NCBI GenBank assembly: GCA_021851325.1
Contig: JAJZDZ010000009.1
Span: 1 to 64,000 of the forward strand
From: Pseudomonadota bacterium
GTDB taxonomy: Bacteria; Pseudomonadota; Alphaproteobacteria; Micropepsales; Micropepsaceae
Direction: 5' to 3'
Length of the DNA: 64,000 nucleotides
The notes beneath the pieces were generated by a model. That model was not told the origin of the DNA, searched no databases, and saw only the letters and a program-made list of their open reading frames with translations. The position numbers and the translations under genes are program-made. Below are positions 39,931-49,895 of this stretch, piece by piece. Every line of letters begins with the position of its first letter. The stretch's first letter is position 1.

Positions 39931-40006
<76 letters not shown>

Positions 40007-40472
40007 ATCAAATCAAAGACTTATGATTTAATGGGGTGGCCCCAATCGGCGCTTGGGGACATTTCGGGGTAGCGCGGGCCCTAACTGCCCAACTGCAGCG
40101 ACAAAATTCTTGAAATCGGCTTCATCGCTCGGTGCGGATGGCATCTCTGAGGCCTGTCCCGTCCCCAAAGGAGGTGGTCTCCTATCAATGCCCGTGATAG
40201 CGGGCACGGCTGATACTTGCGAGTTGGCCCATGCCGTTGCTTCCGGGCCGGTCGCGCGCCGGTGACATCCTCATAACTTCAATGAGGGCATGGACGCCGT
40301 CCCACCAGGCTCGCCGCTCTCTGGTGTTGTGCTCCTACTTGCTGCAAGGCTTGCTGAAAATCGGCTACGGAGTGTGACCGCTGGAGGCGCAGTGTTTGGG
40401 TGCAGCATTGGTCAGGGGTTGAACCCGCCACTAAGCACCATATAATACTTTTCAGCCATATAGCGTGCAGGG
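40007..40472. other. Gene-poor interval after tRNA-Lys
   Basis: No gene is supported. TGGGG-TGG-CCCCA at 40032-40044 could be a weak terminator hairpin for the tRNA. The rest shows no family-like frame on either strand and no integrase remnant I can recognise. I did not find a copy of the tRNA 3' end elsewhere in the window. Confidence 0.4.
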
Positions 40473-41008: not shown

Positions 41009-42988
41009 TTAAGGTGATGGTCGCAGCGCGCGGTAGATGGTGTTGCGTGAGACGCCAAGCGCGCGCGCCGCGGCCGAGATGTTTCCATCATGACGCTGCA
41101 GCGCTGCTGCTACCGCTCCTGCGCGCAGCGCCCGCAAACCCGCTTCATCGCCGGGATCCGGATCGTAGGGTGCATTTGAGCGATCCTGCAGCGGAAGATC
41201 TTCGAGGAGATCCTCCGGTAACTCGGCCAGACCGATAAGGCAGGTATCCCGGGCCATAATGGCGGCGGTGCGCAGCATATTGGTGAGCTGACGAATATTG
41301 CCTGGCCAGTGGTAGCGCCGGAATGCTTCGAATACCTCCGGAGCGATCTTGAGCATGGCACCGCCTTGGGCGGAAAGAATGCGCGCGATGAGAGTCTCAA
41401 TGTCCGTGCGTTCACGCAAGGCCGGCAGGCGAACCACCAGCCCGTTCAAACGGTAGTAAAGATCCTGGCGGAATTCTCCGCGCCGCATCATGTCCTTGAG
41501 ATCGCGATGCGTGGCGCAGATGACGGTGATGTCAACCGGACGTTCCCGGGTTGCCCCGAGCGGCAATACCACCCGTTCCTGCAGGACACGCAGCAGACGG
41601 GTCTGCAGCGTCAGCGGCATGTCGCCGATTTCATCGAGAAACAGCGTGCCACCGTCGGCCAGAAGAATCTTCCCCGGACTGCCACGCCGCCGAGCCCCGG
41701 TGAACGCACCTTCTTCGTAGCCGAACAGCTCGGACTCGATCAGCGATTCGGGAAGGGAGGCACAGTCGATGGCAACGAACGGCCCGGAGCGTCGCTCCGA
41801 TTCGCTGTGAATGGCATGTGCCAGCAGTTCCTTACCCGTGCCGGTTTCGCCAAGGATGATGGTCGGGATGGCATGGCCCCGTGTCATGCGCAGCTTGCCG
41901 ATCACCGCGGCGATCGCCGGATCGCCGGTATCGAGATCGGCCAGCGTCGGCTCGCCGCTGGGCGCGGCCTTTGCACTGCCGCTCCGGCTTGCCCGTGTAT
42001 CGCTCTCCGACCCAAGGTCCGTCTTTGGCCTGTCGGACCCGCACGCCGTCTCCGCCGGTATCGCCTTATGGAGGCCGTCACCACAATTGACCTCGATGCG
42101 TGCGAGCAGCGCCTGCCCATTGCGTAAATTTAGCCGCACCAGAGCGCCCGCGGTACCACGCCGCTGCAGCAGTGCCGGCACGTCAATGTCGAACAGTGAT
42201 ACCAGTGAGTGTTCGGTAATCTGTCTGGTGTCACCCTTGATGCCGAGGAGCGCCAGCGCATTGGGATTGGCCGCAAGCACCCGTCCATGGGCATCGAATG
42301 CGACGATGCCTTCAAGCAGCGTACCGAGCAGTTCGGGGCGGGCATGAAAGTGGACCCGCAGGGCGTCCGAAAAGGCCTCAATGAACAGCTGGTTCTCGAT
42401 CATGCGCGTCGACATGCGAACCAGTTCCATGGTGTGGGGATGATAGTGCTCCTGGGGCCCGGACACGTCGAGCGCGCCGATCAATTCCCCGCGCGGACCG
42501 ATGATCGGGCAGCACGAGCAGGTCAGAATGCGATTGACCGAAAGAATATGCTCATCCCCGTGTACCAGGGTCGCGCGTCGGTCCGCGAGTGCGGTACCGA
42601 TGGCATTGGTTCCCTTGCTGTCTTCCGACCAGAGAACGCCGGGTTTGAGCGCGACCTGCTCGGCCTTCTGCAGAAAATCACCGTTGCCGAGGGAATGCAT
42701 GATCAGACCGCGCTGGTCGGTGAGCAGAACCACGCTATGGGTATTGAGGATCTGCTGGTGCAGCAGCTCCATCACCGGTTGGGCATGGGTAAACAGGGAC
42801 CGGTGCTGTTCTGCCAGTTCGACGAGCGCACTGCGACTGAGCGCGCTGTAATCCGGTCGCAAGCGCTCTGATAGTCCCAGCCTGCGTGCCCGTTCATGCC
42901 ACAGGGACACTACTTCAGCCCGCTCGGCAACCGGCAGTGCCGCCCCTGGGTTTAGCGCCGACTGCATGACAGTCGATCCGTTTCCCAT
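41009..42988 (-). CDS. Sigma54-dependent transcriptional activator (AcoR-like: GAF, AAA+, Fis HTH)
   Basis: 659 residues. An N-terminal GAF-type sensor (about 65-215; [35 protein letters not shown]) and a PAS-like stretch precede the AAA+ domain (about 355-595). Walker A GETGTGKE is near 380, the sigma54 contact loop GAFTGA near 423, and Walker [14 protein letters not shown] near 442. A Fis-type HTH ([20 protein letters not shown]) ends the chain. This is the architecture of AcoR-type acetoin/alcohol regulators. The divergent alcohol and aldehyde dehydrogenase genes nearby have strong -24/-12 promoters, so it very probably activates them. Confidence 0.93.
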
Positions 42989-43195: not shown

Positions 43196-43705
43196 TTAGG
43201 GTGACTGTTTGCAATGGGAAGAGGGGTTGCTGACTGAACCAGTCGCCGCCGGCGGGCAGGTTGCGGCAACTCCAGGGGATGCCTGAACAGCTTTCGGGCC
43301 ATGATACAGCAGCGGCACGGTGCTGCTGCTGGCCAGCTTGCTGGTCAGCGCTGACTGGCCCGCCGGGAAGCCATTTTGTCGGAGCAGAAACGCCATGATG
43401 TCCACGTACTGCTTAGGGGTGAGCGAACCTGGCGCATAGGCGGGCATGTTCACGGACATAAAAAGATAAATATCCTCGACCTTGTAGTTGGCCTTCTTCG
43501 AGGCAAAAATTGGTCCTTTCAGGGCTGGGCCAACCATCCCCTGTTCGTGTTTGCCATGGCACATGGCGCATTTCTGCTCATAGGTCGCATGTCCCGTGTG
43601 GGCTTGGGCGGCGGTGTACAGTGCCGGCACCGCCGCCTCGCCGCGCTGGCTACCCAGCGCGGCGAAGCCCAGGGATAACGCGAGCAATGCTCGACGTAAC
43701 CGCAT
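43196..43705 (-). CDS. Periplasmic c-type cytochrome
   Basis: 169 residues from the ATG at 43705. A signal peptide (RRALLALSLGFAALG, about 1-24) precedes a single haem c domain with CAMCH at 46-50 and probable axial Met87 in SVNMPAYAPGSLT. The C-terminal 50 residues are Ser/Pro-rich with two Cys. It starts 17 bases after the PQQ alcohol dehydrogenase stop, so it should be its co-transcribed periplasmic electron acceptor, analogous in role to cytochrome c550/cL. Family assignment beyond class I cytochrome c cannot be made by eye. Confidence 0.9.
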   Translation of the reverse strand: MRLRRALLALSLGFAALGSQRGEAAVPALYTAAQAHTGHATYEQKCAMCHGKHEQGMVGPALKGPIFASKKANYKVEDIYLFMSVNMPAYAPGSLTPKQYVDIMAFLLRQNGFPAGQSALTSKLASSSTVPLLYHGPKAVQASPGVAATCPPAATGSVSNPSSHCKQSP

Positions 43706-43721
43706 CAGAGCACCACTCCTC

Positions 43722-45431
43722 TCAACGCAGTGCGAAGACATAGAGGTGACCGCCGCGAGGAATACTCTTCACGACAGGAACCATCTTGCCGCCCCAGATC
43801 GGTGTACCACCGCCCCAGCCAGCAAGAATCGCTACGTACTGCTTGCCGTTGACCATGAAGGTCGAGGGCGGTGCGATGATGCCGGAGGAAAGCTTGGGGC
43901 TGCGCCACAGGATCTTGCCAGTTTGTGCATCGAAGGCATAGAGATGCCCGCGGGCCGAGCCACTGAACACCAGTCCCCCGGCCGTGCTCATTGCACCAGC
44001 ATCCCACGGCAGGGCGCTGTCGTGATTCCAGGCCTGGCGACCGGTATCGACGTTGATGGCCTGCAGCGCACCCCAGCTGTGGTCGGCCGGATCGTGCACC
44101 ACCTCGAAGCTTTCACCGAGGTAGGGCAGGCCGGCGTGGTAGAACGTCGGAGCGCCCTTCATGGTCATGCAGGTGTGCATGGTCGGCACATAGGCCATAT
44201 GTGTCTGGGGGTCTACCGAGATTGGCCACCAGTTCTTGCCGCCGAGGAAACTCGGGCAGGTGAAGATCTGCTTGGTCATGGTCGGCCGCAGCGCGTTGTT
44301 GGTGTATGGCAGGCCGTCTTTGAAGCCCTCGACCGAAGTGGCACGGGTAAACGGCTCGGCGTAGATCAGCTTGCCGTTGACCCGGTTGATTGCATAGAAC
44401 CAGCCGTTGCGGTCAGCGTGAACGATGGCCTTATATTCCTTGCCATGATAGCTCAGGCTGGTGAGCACCGGCGTGTTCACACCGTCGTAATCCCATGAGT
44501 CATGTGGCGTGTACTGGTAGTACCACTTGATCTTGCCGGTGCTTGGGTCGAGCGCCAAAAGCGAGTCGGTAAAGAGGTTCAGACCCGGGCGCAGCTTGGC
44601 GAGCCAGGGGCTGGGATTGCCGACGCCCCAGAACAGCGTATTCGTGCTCGCATCATAGGTACCGGTGAGCCAGGCCGAACCGCCGCCGTGCTTGTACATG
44701 CCTTTCGGCCAGGTGTTGCCGCCGAGATGTCCCGGGGCAGCGGTGGTCCACCGGCGCCAGAGCAGGGCACCGGTCTTCGCGTCCAGAGCCTGGATGAAGT
44801 CGCGCGCACCATACTCGCCACCTGACTCTCCGACGATGACCATGCCTTTGAGGATCATTGGCGCAAGCGTCATCGCATAGCCGACGTCGGCCGGCTTTAA
44901 CTCACGCTGCCAGACCACCTTGCCGGTCATGGCGTTCAACGCAACAACATAGTTGTCAAGCGTGGCCATGTAGACATTGTCGCCGTAGAGGGCGACACCG
45001 CGATTGACGACGTCACAGCAAACCGTCTTGAAGCCAACGCCCTTCATGGGCTTGACATACTTCCAAAGGACCTTACCGGTGACCGCATTAAGCGCGATCA
45101 GATGGTCCTTTGGGGTGGTGATGAACATGTACTGCCCATTCACGATCGGAGTTGATTCATAGCCCTGCTTCAGGTGGCTTTGGTAACTCCATACTTCATG
45201 CAGCGTGTTGACGTTCGCGGTATTGATCTGCTTGAAAGGCGCATAGCTCCGACCGGCGTAGTCCCGCCGGAACATCAGCCAGCCATTGTCGTTCTGGGCT
45301 GCAGCCAGACGGGCATTGGTGACCTGTGGATAGCCGGCAGCCAGCGCAGCTGTGGCAGGTGCTAGCGCAACGGCCAGCGAGACCCCGAGCCACAGCCGGC
45401 TGAGCCGGTGTTTTGTCTGGTTAACCTTCAT
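43722..45431 (-). CDS. PQQ-dependent alcohol dehydrogenase, lanthanide-type signature
   Basis: 569 residues from ATG 45431 (GGGGAG ahead). A signal peptide spans about 1-32 (AALAA end), then an eight-bladed quinoprotein propeller. Seen are adjacent Cys138-Cys139 (disulfide over PQQ), metal-ligand Glu206 in GGEYGARDF, Asn272 in GNPSPW, and catalytic Asp314 in HDSWDYDG. The extra Asp316, two residues after the catalytic Asp, is the signature of XoxF/PedH-type enzymes that use a lanthanide instead of calcium. It oxidises a primary alcohol in the periplasm; which alcohol is unknown. It is co-transcribed with the cytochrome c gene from a -24/-12 promoter at 45512-45529. Confidence 0.93.
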   Translation of the reverse strand: MKVNQTKHRLSRLWLGVSLAVALAPATAALAAGYPQVTNARLAAAQNDNGWLMFRRDYAGRSYAPFKQINTANVNTLHEVWSYQSHLKQGYESTPIVNGQYMFITTPKDHLIALNAVTGKVLWKYVKPMKGVGFKTVCCDVVNRGVALYGDNVYMATLDNYVVALNAMTGKVVWQRELKPADVGYAMTLAPMILKGMVIVGESGGEYGARDFIQALDAKTGALLWRRWTTAAPGHLGGNTWPKGMYKHGGGSAWLTGTYDASTNTLFWGVGNPSPWLAKLRPGLNLFTDSLLALDPSTGKIKWYYQYTPHDSWDYDGVNTPVLTSLSYHGKEYKAIVHADRNGWFYAINRVNGKLIYAEPFTRATSVEGFKDGLPYTNNALRPTMTKQIFTCPSFLGGKNWWPISVDPQTHMAYVPTMHTCMTMKGAPTFYHAGLPYLGESFEVVHDPADHSWGALQAINVDTGRQAWNHDSALPWDAGAMSTAGGLVFSGSARGHLYAFDAQTGKILWRSPKLSSGIIAPPSTFMVNGKQYVAILAGWGGGTPIWGGKMVPVVKSIPRGGHLYVFALR

Positions 45432-45511
45432 AGTCGAATACTCCCCACTGTATTGCTGACGGGCGCGACAGGTCCGGTAGCCCACCGGCAACCCGTCACA
45501 AGCCACGATCC

Positions 45512-45529
45512 TGCAAGGCACGTGCCACG
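45512..45529 (-). promoter_or_regulatory. Sigma54 (-24/-12) promoter of the PQQ alcohol dehydrogenase operon
   Basis: Minus-strand TGGCAC (45527-45522), five bases, then TTGC (45516-45513) followed by A: a full match to the TGGCAC-N5-TTGC consensus. The -12 GC is about 82 bases upstream of the dehydrogenase ATG. Confidence 0.82.
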
Positions 45530-45537
45530 CCGAGGCA

Positions 45538-45556
45538 TTGCGCAGAAGTCGCGCAA
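45538..45556. promoter_or_regulatory. Palindrome TTGCGC-N7-GCGCAA, candidate activator site
   Basis: Perfect six-base arms, nine bases upstream of the minus-strand sigma54 promoter. It shares the TTGCG/CGCAA half-site with the palindrome at 45626-45642. The position is close for an enhancer but possible. Confidence 0.45.
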
Positions 45557-45625
45557 ACATAGTCATGTTCGTGATCTCCTGGTGGTTGAAATCAAGTTTT
45601 GCAGGTGCGAAGGCAGCAGCTCAGG

Positions 45626-45642
45626 TGTTGCGCTTCGCAACA
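45626..45642. promoter_or_regulatory. Palindrome TGTTGCG-CTT-CGCAACA, candidate activator binding site
   Basis: Perfect seven-base arms around three bases. It lies about 100 bases upstream of the minus promoter and about 235 bases upstream of the plus promoter, a usual enhancer distance for a sigma54 activator. A related GCAACGTTGC palindrome lies at 45724-45733. Confidence 0.6.
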
Positions 45643-45723
45643 ATTGTCCGAAACGACTGCTACGCTGCGATACACCGCTGGCCTCTTGCTGCATGCGCGA
45701 CACGCGGGCGCGGACGTTTTCCC

Positions 45724-45733
45724 GCAACGTTGC
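45724..45733. promoter_or_regulatory. Palindrome GCAACGTTGC, candidate activator half-site pair
   Basis: A perfect ten-base palindrome of the same GCAAC/GTTGC words, about 145 bases upstream of the plus-strand sigma54 promoter. Confidence 0.4.
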
Positions 45734-45875
45734 AGGTGAGAGGCCCCGATCCCCGCGTGACGATCCGATTGCCTGTAGATCAGCTATTGCGTTTCGGCAC
45801 ACCCCTGTCGCTGCATAGCGCAACCCCTTCGCTCAAAGGCTGGTCTCAGCGAGCAGAAGTCCGCGCAGTCTGGAG

Positions 45876-45892
45876 TTGGCACGTCGCTTGCA
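45876..45892 (+). promoter_or_regulatory. Sigma54 (-24/-12) promoter of the aldehyde dehydrogenase operon
   Basis: TTGGCAC (45876-45882), five bases, then TTGCA (45888-45892), a full consensus -24/-12 element. The start codon of the aldehyde dehydrogenase is about 50 bases downstream. Confidence 0.85.
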
Positions 45893-45940
45893 GAACATCT
45901 CTTGCAAATCGTCGATTCGCGTCGACTCAACAGTGGGGCC

Positions 45941-47467
45941 ATGCTCATGTCGCTAAATCCAAGTAATCACGGACGCGTCAAAATCCAACTCAAGCCGCGC
46001 TACGAGAATTATATCGGCGGCAAGTGGGTGCCGCCGGTCAAAGGCCAGTACTTCACGAATACCACTCCGGTAACGGGTGGCGCGTTGTGCGATGTGCCAC
46101 GCTCTGGGGCCGAGGATATCGAGTTGGCCCTTGATGCGGCACATGCGGCGAAAGCTGCCTGGGGCAAGACCTCTGCGGCCGAGCGCGCGGTATTGATGAA
46201 CAAGATTGCCGACCGGATGCAGGAGAAGCTTGAATATCTTGCTACGATCGAGACCTGGGACAACGGCAAGCCGATCCGCGAGACGATGGCGGCTGATGTG
46301 CCGCTCGCGATTGACCACTGGCGTTATTTCGCCGGCTGCATCCGCGCTCAGGAAGGTGCCGTGAGCCAGATCGACGACGATACCGTGGCCTATCATTATC
46401 ACGAACCGCTCGGCGTGGTCGGGCAGATCATTCCCTGGAACTTCCCGCTCCTGATGGCGACCTGGAAGCTCGCTCCCGCGGTTGCGGCTGGCAATTGCGT
46501 GGTACTGAAGCCCGCCGAGCAGACACCACTGTCGATCCTGCTGCTGATGGAAGTGATCGGTGACCTGCTTCCGCCCGGCGTGGTGAATGTGGTGAACGGC
46601 TTCGGCGTGGAGGCTGGAAAGCCGCTTGCTTCGAGCCCGCGGATTGCCAAGATCGCCTTCACCGGCGAGACCACCACGGGCCGGCTGATCATGCAGTATG
46701 CGGCTCAGAACCTTATACCGGTAACGCTTGAACTCGGTGGCAAGTCTCCGAACGTTTTCTTCGAGGATATCTGCCGCAAGGACGATGAGTTCCTCGACAA
46801 GGCGATCGAAGGCTTTGTACTGTTCGCCCTGAACCAGGGGGAGGTCTGCACCTGCCCGTCGCGTGCGCTGATCCAGGAATCGATCTATGACAGGTTCATG
46901 GAACGGGCCCTGAAGCGTGTTGCGGCGATCAAGCAGGGCGATCCGCTTGATCCGACGACCATGATCGGTGCTCAGGCTTCCCAGGAGCAGCTCGAGAAGA
47001 TCCTCACCTACCTCGACCTCGGTAAGAAGGAAGGTGCCCAGTGCCTCGCTGGTGGCGAACGCAACCAGCTTGGGGGGGACTTCAAGGATGGCTTCTACAT
47101 CAAGCCGACGGTATTCAAAGGTCACAATCGTATGCGCATCTTCCAGGAGGAAATCTTCGGACCGGTGGTATCGGTTACGACCTTCAAGGACATGGACGAA
47201 GCGCTCGCGATCGCCAATGATACGCTCTATGGCCTCGGCGCTGGCGTGTGGTCGCGGGAAGCGAATATCTGCTACCGCATGGGCCGGGCCATAAAGGCCG
47301 GACGAGTGTGGACCAACTGCTATCATGCCTATCCGGCACATGCGGCTTTTGGTGGCTATAAACAGTCCGGTATCGGGCGCGAGACGCACAAAATGATGCT
47401 TGATCACTATCAGCAGACCAAGAACCTTCTGGTAAGCTACTCACCCAATGCACTTGGGTTCTTCTGA
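45941..47467 (+). CDS. NAD-dependent aldehyde dehydrogenase (ExaC/AcoD type)
   Basis: 508 residues. Catalytic Cys303 lies in [15 protein letters not shown] and the general-base Glu in [10 protein letters not shown]; the nucleotide-site stretch [16 protein letters not shown] and the C-terminal [30 protein letters not shown] follow the family pattern. This group oxidises acetaldehyde or longer aldehydes made from alcohols. It diverges from the PQQ alcohol dehydrogenase operon and has its own sigma54 promoter, so both steps of alcohol oxidation are likely controlled together. ATG 45941 is used; ATG 45947 is nearly as good. Confidence 0.94.
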
Positions 47468-47475
47468 GGTAAGCC

Positions 47476-47856
47476 ATGGATGCTGGCCGTGTCAGTGCTA
47501 CGGAAGCGGCGTTGGAGCTGATCGCCGAGCTCGTGGGGCTGCACGGCCCACTCATGTTTCATCAATCGGGGGGCTGCTGCGATGGCAGCGCCCCGATGTG
47601 CCTGCGGCGGGGTGAACTTGTGATCGGTGCGCAGGACGTTTACCTCGGCCAGATTGGTGGCCAGCCCTTTTACATGGGAGCTGCGCAGTTCGAGTACTGG
47701 CAGCACACCTACCTGATCATCGATGTGGTCCCTGGCCGTGGCGGCATGTTCTCACTTGAGGGGCCACTCGGCAGGCGCTTCATCACCCGCTCGCGGCTGT
47801 ACACTGAGGACGAGGAAGCCCTTTTGCCACCGGTCCACTACGGTCCGGTGGGGTGA
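47476..47856 (+). CDS. DUF779 family protein
   Basis: 126 residues: ATEAALELIAELVGLHGPLMFHQSGGCCDGSAPMCL near the start, with the paired Cys and later Cys typical of the DUF779 family, and FYMGAAQFEYW. Its biochemical role is not established. Members usually sit beside acetaldehyde-dehydrogenase-like genes, as here: it starts nine bases after the aldehyde dehydrogenase stop and is surely co-transcribed. The Cys/His content suggests metal binding, which is an inference. Length matches the family. Confidence 0.87.
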   Translation: MDAGRVSATEAALELIAELVGLHGPLMFHQSGGCCDGSAPMCLRRGELVIGAQDVYLGQIGGQPFYMGAAQFEYWQHTYLIIDVVPGRGGMFSLEGPLGRRFITRSRLYTEDEEALLPPVHYGPVG

Positions 47857-48044: not shown

Positions 48045-49895
48045 TCAGCGCTGGCCGTTCTCTAAGTCCCTGACCGCACCTCTTGCCGCGCTGGTTGTAA
48101 ACGCCGCGTAGGCCTTGAGCGCCTGAGACACATGCCGCGTGCGCGCATCAGGCTTGAAGGCCTTGGTACCCTTGGCAAGCATTGCAGTGCGACGTCGGGT
48201 GAGAACTGCCTCATCTACGTCAAGTTCGATCGAACGCTTCGGGATGTCGATGGCGATGGTGTCGCCATCTTCGACCAGACCGATCAGGCCGCCTTCTGCA
48301 GCTTCGGGCGATATATGACCGATCGAGAGGCCCGAGGTGCCACCGGAGAAGCGTCCGTCGGTAATCAGCGCGCAATCTTTGCCCAGGCCCTTGGATTTCA
48401 GGTAGCTTGTGGGATAGAGCATTTCCTGCATTCCTGGTCCACCGCGTGGGCCCTCATAGCGGATTACCACGACATCGCCGGCCTTGATCTTCCCGGTGAG
48501 AATGGCGCTGACCGCCGTGTCCTGGCTTTCAAAGACCCGCGCAGGTCCGCGGAAAGTGAGGATGCGCTCATCCACGCCGGCGGTCTTCACAATGCAGCCG
48601 TCCGCGGCGAGATTGCCATAGAGCACGGCCAGTCCGCCGTCTTTGGAAAAGGCATGTGCCGCTTCCCGGATCACGCCTGCTTCACGATCCAGATCCAGCG
48701 TTTTCCAACGATTGGCCTGGCTGAATGCCACCTGCGTGGGAATACCACCTGGTGCCGCTTTGTAGAACTCATGCACCGACGGGTTATTGGTGCGACGAAC
48801 GTCCCAGCGCTGTAACGCCTCAGCCAGTGTCGCAGCATGAACCGTAGGGACGTCACTATGAATCAGGCCAGCACGCTCCAGCTCGCCAAGTATCGCCATG
48901 ATACCACCGGCACGGTGCACGTCTTCCAGATGCACGTCTGATTTGGACGGGGCAACCTTGCACAGACAAGGAACGCGGCGCGAGAGGCGATCAATATCGG
49001 CCATGGTGAAATCTACCTGGCCTTCATGAGCGGCTGCCAGCAGGTGCAGTACCGTGTTGGTCGACCCACCCATGGCGATATCGAGACTCATTGCATTTTC
49101 AAATGCAGCAAAACTGGCGACACTGCGCGGCAGCACGCTGTGGTCGTCCTGTTCGTAATAGCGCCGGGTGTTGGCAACAATCAGGCGCCCGGCCTCGCGG
49201 AACAGCTTTTCGCGGTCAGCATGGGTCGCCAGCACTGATCCATTGCCGGGAAGCGACAGGCCGAGAGCTTCGGTTAGGCAGTTCATCGAATTGGCGGTGA
49301 ACATGCCTGAACACGAGCCGCAAGTGGGGCAGGCTGAGCGCTCAATGACCTTGACTTCCTCGTCACTTATTTTTTCGTCAGCAGCTGCAACCATCGCATC
49401 GATAAGATCGAGTGCAACTTCTTTACCCTTGACCGTAATCTTGCCGGCTTCCATGGGCCCGCCAGATACGAATACCGCCGGAATGTTGAGGCGCAGTGCT
49501 GCCATCAGCATGCCGGGCGTGATCTTGTCGCAGTTGGAAATACACACCATCGCATCCACGCAATGGGCGTTGCACATATATTCGACACTGTCGGCGATCA
49601 GCTCGCGCGAAGGCAAACTATAAAGCATGCCGTCATGGCCCATGGCGATGCCGTCATCGACCGCGATGGTGTTGAACTCGCGCCCGACCCCACCTGCAGC
49701 TTCAATTTCCCGGGCAACCAGCTGGCCAAGGTCCTTGAGATGGACATGTCCGGGCACAAACTGTGTGAAGGAATTGACCACGGCAATAATCGGTTTGCCG
49801 AAGTCCGCATCCTTCATGCCGGTCGCACGCCACAATCCACGGGCGCCTGCCATGTTGCGGCCGTGGGTGGTGGTTCGAGATCTGTAAGTTGGCAC
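48045..49895 (-). CDS. ilvD: Dihydroxy-acid dehydratase
   Basis: 616 residues from a GTG at 49895 with GGAG seven bases ahead; the family begins [26 protein letters not shown], which fits this start. Upstream in-frame sequence has no match. Fe-S ligand Cys122 ([11 protein letters not shown]) and the [16 protein letters not shown] stretch (Cys189-195) are present, as are [14 protein letters not shown] and the C-terminal ALKAYA. It dehydrates dihydroxy-isovalerate to ketoisovalerate for valine, leucine and pantothenate. It stands apart from ilvBNC, between the DUF779 gene and an AT-rich spacer. Confidence 0.96.

Follow-up and report, generated by a model that had tools for sequence, protein, structure and literature searches.

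A probable divergent sigma54 control region between alcohol and acetaldehyde dehydrogenase genes in an alphaproteobacterium of the Micropepsaceae

The 515-bp gap between a PQQ-dependent alcohol dehydrogenase (ADH) gene and an acetaldehyde dehydrogenase (ALDH) gene is, in our reading of the sequence, a divergent sigma54 control region at which the AcoR-like activator encoded in the same cluster would switch both arms on together. We put the probability of this reading at roughly 0.85. Support is good for the two promoters and extends to one of three palindromes noted earlier; two further candidate sites have been added, and the function of the region is what we infer from these features. Coordinates refer to the window, by which we mean the whole stretch of 64,000 nucleotides that was analysed.

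Gene cluster and outward-facing promoters

The minus strand of the cluster carries the ADH gene (43722-45431; TIGR03075, 565 bits against a cut-off of 480), a c-type cytochrome gene (43196-43741; PF13442) and a gene for a sigma54-dependent, AcoR-like activator with the domain order GAF - AAA+ - Fis HTH (41009-42988; PF01590, PF00158, PF02954). On the plus strand are the ALDH gene, of the ExaC type (45947-47467; NF050026 ExaC equivalog, 957 bits against a cut-off of 900), and a DUF779 protein gene (47476-47856; PF05610). The longest ADH reading frame begins at 45566; the start was assigned to 45431 because a signal-peptide-like start lies there and because of the starts in relatives, and the protein probably carries a signal peptide, as judged by eye. 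The ATG of the ALDH is at 45947. By Pfam, the activator is the sole regulator among the five cluster genes. The original prediction had placed its gene next in the cluster, and it does belong to the cluster, but it is not directly adjacent, lying beyond the ADH and cytochrome c genes.

A scan of genome contigs for the ADH gave 12 loci, among which L041-L047 and L050 share one layout: DUF779 and ALDH on the same strand, opposite ADH, cytochrome c and activator (to contig ends). Seven of these clusters were counted, L050 being left out as coming from the same assembly as L042; the promoter count also omits L048, L049, L051 and L052, for want of the divergent arrangement or because they are remotely related (ADH 28-66% identical). 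Identity to the window in the seven clusters is 83-86% for ADH, 84-90% for ALDH and 71-73% for the activator, and the gap overall is 57-62% identical between the window and each relative. The activator stands beside the cluster in six of the seven, and for L042, whose contig ends past ADH, it is found on L050. Close groups are present (L041/L042/L045, L043/L044 and L046/L047), such that a count of seven out of seven amounts to about three lineages plus the window.

Two exact TGGCAC-N5-TTGC motifs facing opposite genes had been predicted, and both were confirmed as the sole exact matches in the 64 kb. The motif of the ADH arm, TGGCACGTGCCTTGC (45513-45527, minus strand), lies 96 bp upstream of the ADH start, and that of the ALDH arm, TGGCACGTCGCTTGC (45877-45891, plus strand), lies 70 bp upstream of the ALDH start. 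Allowing one mismatch, the window contains five occurrences against a mean of 6.73 expected, which is chance level, and the motif by itself is therefore no evidence. In the 3.53-Mb genome there are 33 occurrences of TGGCAY-N5-TTGC versus 5 of a reversed control, and 2 of the 33 fall within the 515-bp gap, pointing outward. The reading of the motifs as divergent sigma54 promoters is upheld by their presence in all seven related divergent clusters, by an RpoN encoded in the host genome (PF00309, PF04552), and by the GAFTGA motif of the activator. A simple scan of 45400-45960 for sigma70-like promoters saw none.

Spacing is also retained. In all seven relatives TGGCAY-N5-TTGC points toward ADH at 93-98 bp from the start (93-95 bp if the ATG three bases upstream is used in L043 and L044), and toward ALDH at 56 bp from the ATG, compared with 70 bp in the window. 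An imperfect 14-bp tandem repeat (11/14) spans the -12 region of the window's ALDH promoter (45881-45908, plus strand), and since its length equals the 14 bp by which the leader exceeds those of the relatives, the ALDH leader probably grew in the window while the spacing upstream of the -24 element stayed. In pairwise global alignments the ALDH promoter bases match in 79% of cells, a blunt measure because gap lengths differ and the promoter is misplaced in some relatives; direct scanning, which we preferred, finds the motif in every relative. In the rearranged cluster L048 no sigma54 site reaches a score of 9. In L043:13661-15698, a second sigma54 motif (14970, minus strand) was seen at the start of an ORF that has no Pfam match, resembles an outer-membrane protein by eye, and is divergent from a second sigma54-activator fragment.

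Palindromic sites, the activator and alternative explanations

Three palindromes had been proposed as control elements in the gap, and all three are present: TGTTGCG-CTT-CGCAACA (TGTTGCGCTTCGCAACA, 45626-45642), TTGCGC-N7-GCGCAA (45538-45556) and GCAACGTTGC (45724-45733). The first was borne out by a pattern search and a matrix built from relatives, while the other two were not. Among 53,248 palindromic patterns searched in six relatives, with the window excluded and promoters masked (L042 was omitted, its gap being nearly identical to that of L041), TGTTGC-N5-GCAACA came top with 18 sites at two mismatches or fewer, versus maxima of 8-15 in 12 simulated sets; the simulated sets are unrelated sequences, and the shared ancestry of the relatives inflates this comparison. 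We then built a matrix on 20 sites taken from these six relatives. The window took no part in it, but the sites had been picked with the same pattern family, on which the test therefore still depends. Run over the 64 kb, the matrix placed 45626, 45785 and 45809 at ranks 1, 2 and 5 (scores 23.7, 16.7 and 8.1), all inside the gap. No 17-mer overlapping TTGCGC-N7-GCGCAA or GCAACGTTGC scored above -0.6. These two palindromes also occur at chance frequency in the window (7 found versus 9.28 expected at two mismatches, and 5 versus 3.48 at one mismatch, respectively). The conservation looked for in relatives holds for the TGTTGC-type sites, which are kept, but not for TTGCGC-N7-GCGCAA (62%) or GCAACGTTGC (59%), which compare with 58% for the remainder of the gap.

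The window thus has three supported enhancer-like sites, two of which, both on the ALDH side, were absent from the original prediction. Measured upstream from the -24 T, site 1 (45626-45642) is 115 bp from the ADH promoter, and site 2, TATTGCGTTTCGGCACA (45785-45801), and site 3, CGCTGCATAGCGCAACC (45809-45825), are 92 and 68 bp from the ALDH promoter. Sites 2 and 3 each deviate from TGTTGC-N5-GCAACA at 3 of 12 bases. Site 1 is the sole perfect TGTTGC-N5-GCAACA in the 3.53-Mb genome. At two mismatches or fewer there are 210 genomic places, compared with 61 for the reversed control, and loose matches therefore lack specificity; in the window there are 6 versus 2.78 expected, one of the six in the gap. 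The inner ALDH-side site is found 66-69 bp upstream of the -24 T with 0-2 mismatches in all seven relatives, and the outer one at 89-92 bp, again in all seven, with three mismatches in L046 and L047 and two in the other five. On the ADH side, five of seven relatives have sites at 79-81 and 111-113 bp, the inner of which was not found in the window. In L043 and L044 no site with two mismatches or fewer was seen on the ADH side, and the ADH arm there would accordingly depend on ALDH-side sites 267-345 bp off. Enhancers of sigma54 promoters typically lie at such upstream distances (about 70, 90 and 115 bp). IHF-like matches with one and two mismatches also occur in the gap.

The activator encodes GETGTGKE at residue 380 and GAFTGA, the sigma54-contact motif, at residue 427, and RpoN was detected in seven of the eight genomes of L041-L048, with no match in G423, an assembly of unstated completeness. 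Among 25 of the 27 NCBIfam models matched by the activator, none scores up to its cut-off and no AcoR model is present; we call the protein AcoR-like for its order of domains and its ExaC neighbour, as in PMC4676750. The host genome matches the activator at seven places, one of them its own gene; among the matches listed, the other places align with the AAA+/HTH part. Across 61 genomes (the host and 60 relatives, 36 same-genus), no same-genus match among those listed begins before residue 301; as far as these matches go, same-genus genomes resemble the activator at its AAA+/HTH part only. A search of 385 class-level genomes, which include the host and overlap the 61, gave nine at E <=1e-75, host included, and the class-level matches are 32-39% identical across most of the length.

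From these elements a mechanism can be proposed. RNA polymerase with RpoN would occupy the two outward -24/-12 promoters, and the cluster-encoded activator, its GAF domain probably having sensed an alcohol or aldehyde, would bind the 17-bp palindromes, about TGTTSC-N5-GSAACA, that precede the ALDH promoter by roughly 70 and 90 bp and the ADH promoter by roughly 115 bp. It would then open both promoters through ATP hydrolysis, such that one signal could lead together to periplasmic alcohol oxidation (PQQ-ADH and cytochrome c) and cytoplasmic aldehyde removal (ExaC and DUF779). Binding of the activator to these sites, co-induction of both arms and the nature of the inducer are what we infer.

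Other readings of the same region deserve weighing. The sigma54 promoters might be real and another activator, for instance of the LuxR type, might drive one or both arms, leaving the cluster's activator in control of the ALDH arm only. Such control has precedent in the PQQ-ADH gene exaA of Azospirillum brasilense, reported to depend on sigma54 and a LuxR-type regulator (cited in PMC12826043), and the idea gains from the seven activator-like places in the host, the activator's own included, and from L043 and L044, where enhancer sites with two mismatches or fewer are confined to the ALDH side. We nevertheless think it unlikely: the activator keeps its place next to the genes for ADH and cytochrome c, and a site lies 111-115 bp from the ADH promoter in the window and in five of seven relatives.

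The palindromes might instead bind a repressor or some other dimeric factor, as a perfect 17-bp palindrome suits many regulators. This seems quite improbable given that the sites, at about 70, 90 and 115 bp upstream, fit the usual positions of enhancers, that another AcoR-like gene (locus L116) has a similar TGTCGC-N5-GCGACA near it, 93 bp upstream of a sigma54 motif, and that no regulator other than the activator is encoded among the five cluster genes. That the -24/-12 matches and palindromes arose by chance, with the genes using promoters we did not see, is scarcely credible; the chance-level count of one-mismatch promoters in the window and the failure of TTGCGC-N7-GCGCAA and GCAACGTTGC speak for it, but both promoter motifs recur in seven of seven relatives, and the palindrome and matrix tests built on relatives only recovered sites inside the gap. 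A divergent region switched by the cluster's own activator remains our preferred explanation, and it would give one branch of AcoR-like activators a candidate enhancer motif, about TGTTSC-N5-GSAACA, while the gap itself would be a compact two-way promoter suited to tests in a laboratory strain.

Cofactor supply and apparent horizontal movement

In PQQ-ADHs of the lanthanide type a second Asp is found two residues past the catalytic Asp. The ADH of the window has WDYD at residues 313-316, aligning to WDFD of PedH (6zcw) and WDFS of ExaA (1flg), and WDYD is present in all nine other ADHs examined (L041-L049). By the second Asp, the enzyme would be classed as lanthanide-type (PedH/XoxF-like). Neither PqqC nor PqqE was found above cut-off in the host genome, which is 98% complete. 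Each of the two was above cut-off in one of nine cluster-bearing genomes (G425), the remaining eight being without. Among 69 genomes of the genus, the host being one, 7 have PqqE, which indicates that the search was able to find it. A TonB receptor gene adjoins the activator convergently in L041 and L043-L047, but not in the window, and the receptor of L046 (L046:11254-13425) matches E. coli YncD/PqqU, a PQQ importer (PMC12124388), at 518 bits. No clear PqqU was found in the host genome, where there are weak matches only (best 54.9 bits). If the PQQ observation holds, the cluster is an example of a PQQ enzyme under regulation whose host has to take the cofactor up from outside.

The left edge of a host-specific segment is marked by a tRNA-Lys(CTT) gene (39931-40006, plus strand). 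Similarity to same-genus genomes ends at 40015 in G005 and 40006 in G013, i.e. at the end of the tRNA-Lys, and earlier, at the end of rodA, in G027 (39864) and G448 (39839). It resumes in G005 at about 48066 (48045-48066), in ilvD, on a different contig, which left the empty site out of view. Compared with the nearest same-genus genome searched, the host-specific segment between the tRNA-Lys end and ilvD is about 8 kb. We noticed no integrase between 40 and 41 kb, and no attachment-site repeat of the tRNA-Lys end was found elsewhere in the window.

Host RodA is 71-95% identical in seven same-genus genomes. Its best matches are 40-44% identical in the genomes of L042-L048, one of which also has a 52% match over a 106-residue piece, and the L041 genome has a 31% match that is apparently to a paralogue only. 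The cluster proteins are nevertheless 71-90% identical in L041-L047, a contrast that relies on RodA as a single marker. Judged from these sequences, the module, including its cis sites, appears to have moved horizontally between distant lineages. A broader picture, which we put forward tentatively and rate as somewhat doubtful, is of a complete self-regulating cassette (lanthanide-type PQQ-ADH, cytochrome c, ExaC and DUF779, together with a sigma54 activator, enhancers and promoters of its own) that may move between distant proteobacterial lineages, land at a tRNA gene, and work in hosts unable to make PQQ, using the cofactor of their neighbours. If that were true, its control would be a portable, host-independent circuit requiring only RpoN.

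Comparison with known systems

Among the closest published arrangements is that of Ralstonia solanacearum, in which the AcoR-like RSc3129 is predicted to control the ExaC acetaldehyde dehydrogenase RSc3128 and RpoN1 is required for growth on ethanol (PMC4676750). It shares with the window an AcoR-like sigma54 activator paired with ExaC, but the term PQQ is absent from the text of that paper, and its passages on this system describe neither a second, divergent promoter nor the sequence of an enhancer. In Azospirillum brasilense, exaA is reported to be a PQQ-ADH gene under sigma54 control, as proposed for the window, but the regulator is of the LuxR type rather than AcoR-like (Singh et al., 2017, cited in PMC12826043). 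The BmoR - Pbmo system of Thauera butanivorans likewise combines an enhancer-binding protein, here alcohol-responsive, with a sigma54 promoter and an upstream inverted repeat (PMC8899819). It differs in its target, an alkane monooxygenase (PMC6366067), and in an enhancer 193 bp upstream, where deletion of the repeat kept wild-type activation in E. coli (PMC8899819). The Pseudomonas ped/exa cluster also brings a PQQ-ADH and an ExaC-type ALDH together, and its PedH is lanthanide-dependent, but control is by PedS2-PedR2 and AgmR, and the pqq operon is described as present in all Pseudomonas species carrying the cluster (PMC12997753).

Six stretches around class-level AcoR-like genes (L116-L121) were scanned for comparable designs. 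In L119 (G301) the activator is divergent from an ALDH (75%) and DUF779 (70%), as in the window, with TGGCAT-N5-TTGC 92 bp before the aligned ALDH start; it has a single sigma54 arm, however, and no PQQ-ADH match in the stretch examined. L117 (G382) carries an AcoR-like gene, an exact TGGCAC-N5-TTGC and a PQQ-ADH (39%) about 0.8 kb downstream on the divergent side. The palindromes upstream of the sigma54 motifs in L117, L118 and L119 differ from those of the window, while L120 has the palindrome TGCGACACCTGTCGCA 91 bp upstream of its motif, and no full sigma54 motif was present in the L121 stretch.

The literature searched yielded no published enhancer of this sequence and no divergent sigma54 PQQ-ADH/ALDH region, which is no proof of absence. 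The control design is of a known kind, AcoR-ExaC units and sigma54 control of PQQ-ADH having already been published; less usual are a host in which no pqqC, pqqE or clear PqqU was found, the lanthanide-type Asp, the tRNA-Lys neighbour, and the apparent mobility of the module together with its cis sites.
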